A stretch of 64,000 nt of DNA, taken from assembly GCA_002011235.1 (NCBI GenBank), contig MTMO01000055.1:1-64000 (forward strand), read 5' to 3'. Below the pieces are notes generated by a model. The model searched no databases. It was not told where the DNA came from and was given only the letters and a program-made list of their open reading frames with translations. Position 1 is the first letter of the stretch, and each line of letters starts with the position of its first letter. The translations under genes and the position numbers were made by a program. This stretch comes from Archaeoglobus sp. JdFR-27. GTDB lineage: Archaea; Halobacteriota; Archaeoglobi; Archaeoglobales; Archaeoglobaceae. Below are positions 46,007 to 49,700 of this stretch, piece by piece.

Positions 46007-46744
46007 ATGGTAGATGTAATTTTGAACGGAGAAATTTTGAAGATGGTCTCAAAAGCGATGGTGTCCCTTGTCAGCGAAGCAAGATTTCACTTCAAGGAGG
46101 AGGGTTTGCATTCAAGGGCAGTTGACCCAGCAAATGTCGCGATGGTTATAGTAGATGTCCCAACATCCTCTTTCGAATCCTATAATGTTGATGGTGAGTT
46201 CATTGCTGGGGTTGATGTAAACCGAATTTTCGATATCTCGAAATCGATAAAGAGTGACGAGATAGTTGAGCTTACCGTTGTTGATGAGACCTCTCTCGTA
46301 ATCAAATTCGGAAGTGTGAGGTATTCAGTCTCACTCATCGATCCCTCAGCGATCAGAAAGGAGCCAAGGGTTCCACAGATAGATCTTCCCGCAAAGATAG
46401 TCATGGATGCCGGAGAGTTCAGGAAGGCCATTATGGCGGCCGACAAAATAAGCGATCACGTTGTCTTCAGAACTAATAGCGAAGGATTCTTTATTGAGGC
46501 GGAGGGAGATGTCGACAAAATAACCTTCCACCTAACAGAGGCTGAACTCGCGGAATTCAATGGAATGGAAGCAAGGAGTATGTTTTCCCTTGAATACCTA
46601 AAAGAGTTCGTAAAAATCGCCTCTCCTGGAGATGTGTTAACGATAAGACTCGGAAACGATTATCCTGGAAGGATGCTTTTCGAAGTGGCTGCGGGGAAGG
46701 TTAAGGTAGAGTATATTCTTGCTCCAAGGATTGAGGCTGAATAA
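46007..46744 (+). CDS. pcn: DNA polymerase sliding clamp (PCNA)
   Basis: LVSEARFHFKEEGLHSRAVDPANVAMVIVDVP; C-terminal AGKVKVEYILAPRIE. Confidence 0.96.
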   Translation: MVDVILNGEILKMVSKAMVSLVSEARFHFKEEGLHSRAVDPANVAMVIVDVPTSSFESYNVDGEFIAGVDVNRIFDISKSIKSDEIVELTVVDETSLVIKFGSVRYSVSLIDPSAIRKEPRVPQIDLPAKIVMDAGEFRKAIMAADKISDHVVFRTNSEGFFIEAEGDVDKITFHLTEAELAEFNGMEARSMFSLEYLKEFVKIASPGDVLTIRLGNDYPGRMLFEVAAGKVKVEYILAPRIEAE

Positions 46745-46760
46745 AATTTCTTTCACCTTT

Positions 46761-47981
46761 ATGCCCGTTCTCACAGCAAAGAAGAAACCATATCTGCCTT
46801 TCTTTCCCTTAATAATAAAGTACCCTTTTCTCAAAATAACAGGGATGTTCTTAGAACACGAATTCGGTAGTATTGAAAACATGTTCAATGCTGCGAAAAG
46901 AAACTATGTTGTGGCTGAAGGGGTTGAAAGGGGTAAGAAGATTGTAAAATCGATTGTGGAAGGAACTGAAATTACGTTTAAAGACATAATTGAGGATTTT
47001 TCTTGTTTTGATTGTGAAATTGGGTGTTATAAAAAATGTGAGATTGGGTTTTTAAGTCACGAATGCTTTTCATGTAGCGAATGTTTTAGGAACTGTTCAT
47101 TTGAGTCGGAGACCGAATTTTACCTTAAAAGAAAGAAAGATGCGATTATTTCTGCGATAGGCTATCTATATTCACGGATTCTATCTTCTAACCTCGAAGA
47201 TTGGGTTTTAAGGAAGTATGCTGTTAAAGAATCAGAGAGGTACGCCAGAATTTTCTTTTCAGAAGGAATTGGCGTATTAAAGTTAATTTCCTCAGATCTT
47301 GGTGTAAAGGTAAGGTATTCTAAAGATTTTAAGGTTCATGTTTCCTCCTACCTAAAGGTTGCTGTTAAGATTAAAGCTCCTACTTGGAGATTGCTGAACA
47401 GGAGATTGAAGAGAGGTTACATACCCTTAAGCAAGAGAGATTTTTTAAGGGTTCTTGAGGAACATCTCAGGAATAAACTGTCTCAGAGAGAAGATTACAC
47501 CTCCATACTCAAATTTGACTTTATAAAAGAGGATATTGGGGAGTTTAAAGTTATTGCTGAGAGAAAAAGGGAAAAATTACCAAAAATCAGCTTTGAAAGA
47601 ATTGAGGTTTCAGATTTTCCACCTTGCATGCGAAAGATTCTTTCAGATCTTCAAGCGGGTGTGAATATCCCCCATACGGCAAGATTTGCCATAACATCCT
47701 TCCTCCTCAACCTCGGGATGGATATTAAGGAGATTATCGATCTTTATAAAACAGCTCCAGACTTCGATGAGGATAAAACGAGGTATCAGGTTGAGCATAT
47801 CGCTGGGGCAAAGGGAACCGAATACGAGACTCCTTCATGCGAAACTATGAAAACGTATCACAACTGCTTTTACGACGAGTCATGCAAAGGAATTTACCAC
47901 CCAATTCAGTATTACTCTGAAAAGATTAAGAAGAATAGAGGTTGGGTAAAAAGCAAGAAGGCAGAGAGACAAGGGAAGTGA
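46761..47981 (+). CDS. priL: DNA primase large subunit PriL with N-terminal cysteine-rich insertion
   Basis: C-terminal Fe-S pattern PPCMRKIL...HTARFAITSFLLNLGM...PSCETMKTYHNCFYDESCK; ATG at 46761 (MPVLTAKKKPYLPFFPLIIKYPFL) preferred. Confidence 0.9.
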   Translation: MPVLTAKKKPYLPFFPLIIKYPFLKITGMFLEHEFGSIENMFNAAKRNYVVAEGVERGKKIVKSIVEGTEITFKDIIEDFSCFDCEIGCYKKCEIGFLSHECFSCSECFRNCSFESETEFYLKRKKDAIISAIGYLYSRILSSNLEDWVLRKYAVKESERYARIFFSEGIGVLKLISSDLGVKVRYSKDFKVHVSSYLKVAVKIKAPTWRLLNRRLKRGYIPLSKRDFLRVLEEHLRNKLSQREDYTSILKFDFIKEDIGEFKVIAERKREKLPKISFERIEVSDFPPCMRKILSDLQAGVNIPHTARFAITSFLLNLGMDIKEIIDLYKTAPDFDEDKTRYQVEHIAGAKGTEYETPSCETMKTYHNCFYDESCKGIYHPIQYYSEKIKKNRGWVKSKKAERQGK

Positions 47982-49021
47982 AGGAGTTGAAGGTAGTAGA
48001 GGAGAGACTAAAGGGAAATGAGGGAGAGATCAAGCTGATTCCAGAAAATCTGGATGATATTTGGCATTTGAGACATATAATCGAACCTGGAGACGTTGTG
48101 TTTGCCCTCACAAAGAGGATAAGCGAGAGCAGCGATAAGTTAAGGAGTGACAAGGAAAAGATCACTGTTAGGCTTGGAATCAGGGTTGAGAAAGTTGAAT
48201 TCCATAGATTTGCGAATAGGCTAAGGGTTTCAGGATTGATAGTTGCAGGAGTTGAGGATTCTGGACATCACACATTGAACATCTCCGTTGGGACAGAGGT
48301 TAGTGTCATAAAGGAGTGTTGGAAGGATGAGCAGCTTGATAGAATTAAGAGGGCGATAGAGGCATCAAAGAGGCCTGAAGTTGTTATCGTGGTGATAGAA
48401 GAGGGTGAGGCAACCATAGGGGTTTTGAGGGAGTGGGGAGTTGAGGAGGTTGCAAGCATAACGAGAAGCTATGGAAAGGGGATGGGAGATTACCGAAAAG
48501 AGTTTTTTGGAGAGATCTTATCCACCTTAAAAAACCTTGATTTTAGATATGCAGTTATTGCTGGCCCTGGGTTTACAAAGGAGGATTTCATAAAGTTCGT
48601 GAGAGAAAGAGAAGCTGAGCTGTCAAAGAAGCTGATTAAAGCGGATGTGTCCTCTACGGGCAGACGAGGGTTTGTTGAAGTTTTGAGGAGAGGGGTTGTA
48701 ACTAGGATTGTCGGGGAGCTAAGACTTGCTGAAGAGGCAGAATACATCGAGAGGCTTCTCGGCGAGATAGCAAAGAATGGCAACGTAGCTTATGGACTGA
48801 ATGAGGTTGAGAAAGCACTGAATTATGGAGCAATAGATGTGTTGCTAATAACGGATGAGTTTTTGATGGAAGAAAGAGAGAAATGGGATGTAGACTCTTT
48901 ACTTGAAGATGTTGAAAAAGGGAACGGGAAAGTTGTAATAATGAGCTCAGAATTCGAGCCAGGAAGACAGTTAAACTCTTTGGGTGGTATTGCAGCCCTC
49001 TTAAGATTTCCCATAGCCTAA
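47978..49021 (+). CDS. pelA: mRNA surveillance protein Pelota
   Basis: IPENLDDIWHLRHIIEPGDVVFALTKR; AGPGFTKEDF; LNSLGGIAALLRFPI; GTG start at 47978 preferred over the ORF-track start. Confidence 0.95.
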   Translation: MKELKVVEERLKGNEGEIKLIPENLDDIWHLRHIIEPGDVVFALTKRISESSDKLRSDKEKITVRLGIRVEKVEFHRFANRLRVSGLIVAGVEDSGHHTLNISVGTEVSVIKECWKDEQLDRIKRAIEASKRPEVVIVVIEEGEATIGVLREWGVEEVASITRSYGKGMGDYRKEFFGEILSTLKNLDFRYAVIAGPGFTKEDFIKFVREREAELSKKLIKADVSSTGRRGFVEVLRRGVVTRIVGELRLAEEAEYIERLLGEIAKNGNVAYGLNEVEKALNYGAIDVLLITDEFLMEEREKWDVDSLLEDVEKGNGKVVIMSSEFEPGRQLNSLGGIAALLRFPIA

Positions 49022-49073: not shown

Positions 49074-49700
49074 TTACCTTATTACGCTTTTTCCACCACA
49101 AACAACGTAGCTTCCAGCTTTAATTCCGTAATACTTGTTCTTCTCTTTCAAAGGAATTAAGATTTCATTTTCAGCATCTTCAATCCCCTTTATTCTTCTT
49201 ACCGAAGTAATGCTGAAATTTTTCAACTTCACCGCAAGTATTTCGCCATCTTCAGTTTCCTCACAATCTTTGTCATACAGAATGACTTCCATCAGATTAT
49301 AGCAGCCGTTCTCCTTTTCTACAAAAATTTCCCCATACAAAAGTTCTTGCAGAATTGAACTGAAAAAATACCAGTCCTCTTCGACGAGTCTCTGCCTTGG
49401 AAATCTGCTTAAAGCGATGATAACATCCTCTGCAAATTTCTTATCATGTATCAACCAGCAATCCATGCAACTCCAAACGAATTTGCCTTCAGATGTAAGC
49501 TTAATTTCACCACTCATGTTGTAGTTAAGGCAAGGGTAGAAGGGGCAGTAGCAGAAGGTGCAATCCTGGCCGGAGAAATGGCAAGGATAGTACTTGCATT
49601 CAAAAGATGGGCCATATACACCTTCAAAAGCTGAAAAGAGATCTATGAGGGTTTTTTCCCTGAGGCTTTCTATTTCACCTACTTCTCCCCTTTCATCCAT
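49074..49700 (-). CDS. Cysteine-rich small domain protein
   Basis: YGPSFECKYYPCHFSGQDCTFCYCPFYPCLNY...WSCMDCWLIHDKKFAEDVI. Confidence 0.85.
   Translation of the reverse strand: MDERGEVGEIESLREKTLIDLFSAFEGVYGPSFECKYYPCHFSGQDCTFCYCPFYPCLNYNMSGEIKLTSEGKFVWSCMDCWLIHDKKFAEDVIIALSRFPRQRLVEEDWYFFSSILQELLYGEIFVEKENGCYNLMEVILYDKDCEETEDGEILAVKLKNFSITSVRRIKGIEDAENEILIPLKEKNKYYGIKAGSYVVCGGKSVIR

Follow-up and report, generated by a model that had tools for sequence, protein, structure and literature searches.

The large subunit of DNA primase (PriL) in archaea of the order Archaeoglobales contains a ferredoxin-like insert in its N-terminal part. The insert is present in every distinct PriL of the order that was examined, was gained once and was partly lost once. 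The reading that we prefer, with a probability of about 0.6, is that a ferredoxin module acquired on a single occasion would work as a cluster-stabilised structural domain that serves the stability or assembly of PriL; the type of metal, the pairing of the ligands and the role in assembly and stability are what we infer from the comparison of proteins and genomes.

The gene that led to this finding lies in a window of 64,000 nucleotides, i.e. the whole stretch of Archaeoglobus sp. JdFR-27 DNA that was analysed, where priL occupies positions 46761..47981 of the + strand, with an ATG start codon at 46761 and the coding part at 46761-47978. The 406-residue product is identified as PriL by Pfam (PF04104, 1.4e-32) and by the NCBIfam PriL model (1.1e-87); its sequence matches solved PriL chains, and its structure model (mean pLDDT 85) matches the folds of 5of3_B and 1zt2_B, including the helical N-terminal domain. 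The N-terminal fold and the C-terminal Cys4 cluster are shared with canonical archaeal and eukaryotic PriL (PF04104). In particular, the four canonical [4Fe-4S] ligands, C289, C360, C369 and C375 (47625..47885, + strand), already recognised when the sequence was first read without database searches, were placed by alignment to solved PriL chains and fall in invariant columns, unchanged among the aligned relatives. Whereas known PriLs have one cluster, Archaeoglobales PriL adds eight or four cysteines in an insert of about 45 residues. Immediately upstream of priL lies the gene of the PCNA sliding clamp (46007..46744, + strand), and downstream a gene for a pelota/eRF1-family protein (47942..49021, + strand) overlaps it. 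Farther along, a 208-residue protein encoded on the - strand (window positions 49074-49700) has a cysteine cluster near its N-terminus and is a possible metal-binding protein in the vicinity of priL.

The insert spans approximately residues 71-117 (46971..47111, + strand) between the model helices 49-67 and 118-143, directly before the second of them, and is modelled with a confidence of 64-74; the equivalent linker of S. solfataricus PriL has only about 10-15 residues. Its cysteines are found at positions 82, 85, 89, 93, 102, 105, 108 and 112, with the spacing C-x2-C-x3-C-x3-C-x8-C-x2-C-x2-C-x3-C and codons spanning 47004-47096, so the eight-cysteine stretch described in the sequence-only reading was reproduced from the ORF translation in both span and spacing. 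In 2[4Fe-4S] ferredoxins, C1, C2, C3 and C8 ligate cluster I and C4-C7 ligate cluster II. When this general knowledge is transferred to PriL, motif I (47004..47039, + strand) would supply C82, C85 and C89 as predicted ligands of cluster I and C93 as a predicted ligand of cluster II, and motif II (47064..47096, + strand) would supply C102, C105 and C108 to cluster II and C112 to cluster I.

The kinship with ferredoxins is best seen in the basal members of the order, whose inserts are recognisable by their sequence as dicluster ferredoxins. One of them reads C-RD-C-EFIS-C-ISV-CPEKAI...C-SG-C-GR-C-LQG-C, with the CPxxAI motif present. Two basal inserts run alone reach Fer4_7 (27.3 bits for a Pfam cut-off of 27, 5e-6) and LdpA_Fe-S-bd (30.0 bits for a cut-off of 27.6, 4.5e-7), the whole protein falling just below these cut-offs. 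The two-motif arrangement of ferredoxins, C-x2-C-x2..4-C-x3-C followed by C-x2-C-x2-C-x3-C, is found in the insert. Motif II is exact in 48/48 eight-cysteine inserts; motif I has the spacing x4, x3 in the basal members and has drifted elsewhere (x3, x1-x3), including the window protein (x3, x3), in agreement with the initial view that the second half matches a ferredoxin motif and the first half is close to one. The window lineage has indeed drifted, with the proline after C4 gone (no CP) and C-x3-C-x3-C in place of the usual C2-C3 spacing. Its insert stays below every Pfam cut-off (best Fer4_9, E 0.12) and, judged on its own residues, would not be recognised as a ferredoxin.

A profile built from 16 inserts and searched against PDB sequences up to E 10 matched 162 of them, with a best E of 9.5e-7, and nearly all of the 60 listed of these 162 matches are of ferredoxin type, led by Fe-S hydrogenase, HycB, Arr and MvhB subunits (about 1e-6 to 6e-6). 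A control profile with shuffled columns and the cysteines kept matched 12 PDB sequences (best E 0.0059); since this control mostly misses ferredoxins, the resemblance of the insert goes beyond the spacing of its cysteines. Modules of the HycB/NrfC/DmsB type, the best profile matches, have C-x2-C-x4-C-x3-C(P) followed by C-x2-C-x2-C-x3-C; they are part of redox enzymes, whereas the PriL module stands alone within a primase subunit. The structure model of a basal insert (pLDDT 58.5) gave 33 PDB fold matches, all 33 of Fe-S ferredoxin type and none significant (best E 0.7), so that a ferredoxin fold is supported, not proven. The initial 'ferredoxin-like' call has thus gained ground from the basal Fer4 and LdpA matches above cut-off, from the profile as compared with its shuffled control, and from a clade with four cysteines that correspond to the ligands of cluster I. 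The ferredoxin reading is supported by these comparisons, and the insert should hold one or two predicted [4Fe-4S] clusters beyond the canonical one.

Cys4 sites are also able to bind zinc, and the cysteines might form a structural knuckle around one or two Zn(II) ions. This could be their original state or one reached later in derived lineages, among them that of the window, whose insert has lost the proline behind C4 and the usual distance between C2 and C3; a few weak zinc-finger matches also occur in the profile search (2yvr, 0.017; 4qf3, 0.039). We regard binding of zinc as quite improbable, as ferredoxins dominate the same search by dozens and the zinc matches are much weaker, with isolated zinc-finger matches (E >= 0.017) and no assignment of the insert to the zinc knuckle or zinc ribbon families. 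In addition, the basal inserts exceed the cut-offs of Fe-S families, and the subset of cysteines retained in the four-cysteine clade fits ferredoxin cluster I, not two CxxC pairs. Zinc as the ancestral metal of the insert appears unlikely on the same grounds.

The distribution of the insert was followed across the order and the phylum. PriL is present in 55/55 genomes of the family Archaeoglobaceae, in one of them (G039) as a short fragment only, as well as in two basal members of the Archaeoglobales. All of the 56 distinct Archaeoglobales PriLs examined have the insert, and the carriers among named records are Archaeoglobus, Geoglobus, Ferroglobus and related MAGs. Conservation of the cysteines in close relatives had been set beforehand as a test of the claim, and it held: the complete eight-cysteine pattern occurs in 48 of the 56 proteins, and exactly the same four cysteines (C1, C2, C3 and C8) in the other 8, all from one clade. 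The genome that we take to be that of A. fulgidus (G030) encodes a PriL with eight insert cysteines, and that of presumed A. profundus (G037) one with four. Beyond the order, a profile of the insert and its flanking helices was scanned against 199 genomes of the window's phylum; it found 32 Archaeoglobaceae genomes, missed one (G037, a four-cysteine species with a shorter insert) and gave no insert in 166/166 genomes outside the Archaeoglobaceae. At the same site, the linker is short and free of cysteines in methanogens and other members of the phylum. The insert is therefore not a widespread euryarchaeal feature (0/166 other genomes of the phylum) and is confined to the order Archaeoglobales in the sample examined, in which PriL from outside the phylum was seen through solved structures only. 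In another order of the same class, one genome (G020, locus L023) has a linker about 30 residues longer at the insert site, again cysteine-free.

On a tree calculated without the insert columns, one gain of the insert suffices, and so does one loss from eight to four cysteines, as the four-cysteine species form one clade with a support of 97/99; two independent losses of cluster II are rejected in view of this single clade. In the eight-cysteine species, TGT and TGC interchange freely at the cysteine codons of the insert and the residue is always Cys, which indicates that the residues are under selection. The surface of the insert varies and its cysteines are fixed; they are not there by chance. 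The retention of C1, C2, C3 and C8 is by itself modest evidence for cluster I, because one contiguous deletion can yield the same set; the fixation of four cysteines across eight species on long branches argues for it more strongly than the set itself.

We propose that the ancestor of the Archaeoglobales acquired, in a single event, a 2[4Fe-4S] ferredoxin module in the linker between two N-terminal helices of PriL. In most species the module would still have both [4Fe-4S] clusters, and in the clade that includes presumed A. profundus only cluster I. The cluster-loaded insert would hold the N-terminal helices in place, and the helices so fixed may support the stability of PriL, its pairing with PriS or a contact with another part of the replisome. 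Upon loss of the clusters by iron shortage or oxidation, primase would fail to assemble or would be degraded; in this way the clusters may make the amount of primase, or its assembly, dependent on iron-sulfur supply. In Methanosarcina, removal of the ferredoxin-like domain (FLD) of the RNA polymerase (RNAP) subunit Rpo3, or of its clusters, impairs RNAP assembly with viability kept, and cluster 1 matters more (PMC5300874). Treatment of Sulfolobus with hydroxyurea causes a selective loss of PriL, for which a destabilised C-terminal cluster was the authors' speculation (PMC5134839), and priming in S. solfataricus is independent of the canonical C-terminal cluster (PMC5700102). Taken together, the Rpo3 precedent, the loss of PriL under hydroxyurea and the cluster-independent priming favour a structural role. 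Priming without the canonical cluster also weighs against a structural role that depends on a cluster, and the drift in the window lineage together with the confidence of 64-74 for the insert model weighs against a structural ferredoxin. Moreover, among 20 PriS sequences no Cys-rich or inserted segment is paired with the PriL insert, and this lack of a matching change would count against the structural model.

Dicluster ferredoxins are electron carriers, and electrons might instead move between the extra clusters and a partner, which could be the C-terminal cluster, DNA or a cellular ferredoxin partner; DNA binding by primase, or the start and stop of priming, would thereby be tuned to the redox state of the cell. 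Archaeoglobales are strict anaerobes (PMC5300874), and for the C-terminal cluster of human primase a role as redox switch has been claimed and is debated (PMC6298731; PMC5700102). Such a function appears unlikely to us: one clade dropped cluster II and kept cluster I, which would break a two-cluster relay, nothing places the insert close enough to the C-terminal cluster for electron transfer, and the independence of Sulfolobus priming from that cluster (PMC5700102) speaks against it too. Redox control or electron transfer by the insert is possible but unsupported, and is a matter of speculation. Still less probable, and also less so than binding of zinc, is a three-cluster primase in which the C-terminal cluster or DNA would receive electrons from the spliced-in ferredoxin, with priming gated directly by the cellular redox state.

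The closest parallel to the preferred structural reading is Rpo3 (RNAP subunit D): its FLD (D3) and the PriL insert are both dicluster ferredoxin modules that anaerobic archaea carry in a nucleic acid polymerase, within a subunit that is not catalytic. The FLD has one or two [4Fe-4S] clusters, both of which are listed for the Archaeoglobales, and loss of cluster II is commoner than that of cluster I (PMC5300874), as in the PriL insert. The two differ in host protein and insertion site. With the profile of the insert, Rpo3 of 14 genomes (L182-L195) reaches 16 bits at most and an NrfC/DmsB-like protein from the genome of the window 36 bits. Derivation of the PriL insert from the Rpo3 domain is rejected, Rpo3 not being the nearest protein of ferredoxin type. 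As the PriL insert resembles NrfC/DmsB-like modules more closely than it does Rpo3, the two insertions are apparently independent. A linked loss of cluster II in both proteins is rejected as well, since Rpo3 has its eight FLD cysteines in 14/14 genomes checked, including the lineages tested whose PriL has four.

The module, with any metal, could also offer a docking surface for a partner that is specific to the Archaeoglobales (RPA, PCNA, MCM/GINS or an Fe-S delivery factor), its clusters just holding the fold. The variable surface around fixed cysteines would suit this role, as would the position of priL beside the PCNA gene, which is also found in A. fulgidus (PMC2643942). However, Methanosarcinales share the PCNA-PriL neighbourhood (PMC2643942), yet their PriL is without the insert in our comparison, and the known archaeal RPA contact sits on PriS (PMC11686378). 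We consider docking the most doubtful of these readings.

No published description of the PriL insert was found in the open literature searched; the PriSL of A. fulgidus has been studied and is active, as reviewed in PMC4538821. Whether the iron-sulfur cluster of primase has a redox role or only a structural one is disputed, and the Archaeoglobales primase is a natural case in which control of primase by such clusters can be tested. In particular, predicted natural three-cluster and two-cluster primases occur in cultivated species and would allow a direct comparative test. After Rpo3, PriL is the second instance, apparently of independent origin, in which an anaerobic archaeon has a ferredoxin spliced into a subunit of a polymerase. 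Both share the preference for keeping cluster I, which suggests that it is of general advantage to make the assembly of polymerases depend on iron-sulfur supply.

Three genomes (G000, G005 and G038) gave further PriL-like matches, which belong to separate paralogues and do not contain the insert. In G000, a 342-residue fusion of a PriS-like primase domain and a PriL C-terminal domain is encoded outside the window (C22:24890-25918; L146:1891-2919, + strand; Pfam DNA_primase_lrg 2.3e-15, DNA_primase_S 8.9e-6). It adjoins a 593-residue protein, has a layout like that of the PolpTN2 plasmid primase and probably belongs to a mobile element. Other Archaeoglobales have paralogues that bear a PriL C-terminal domain at L147 (G005), L148 (G038) and G019:C1:62790-63206; the N-terminal parts of L147 and L148 are unlike each other, and both are without the ferredoxin-like insert.
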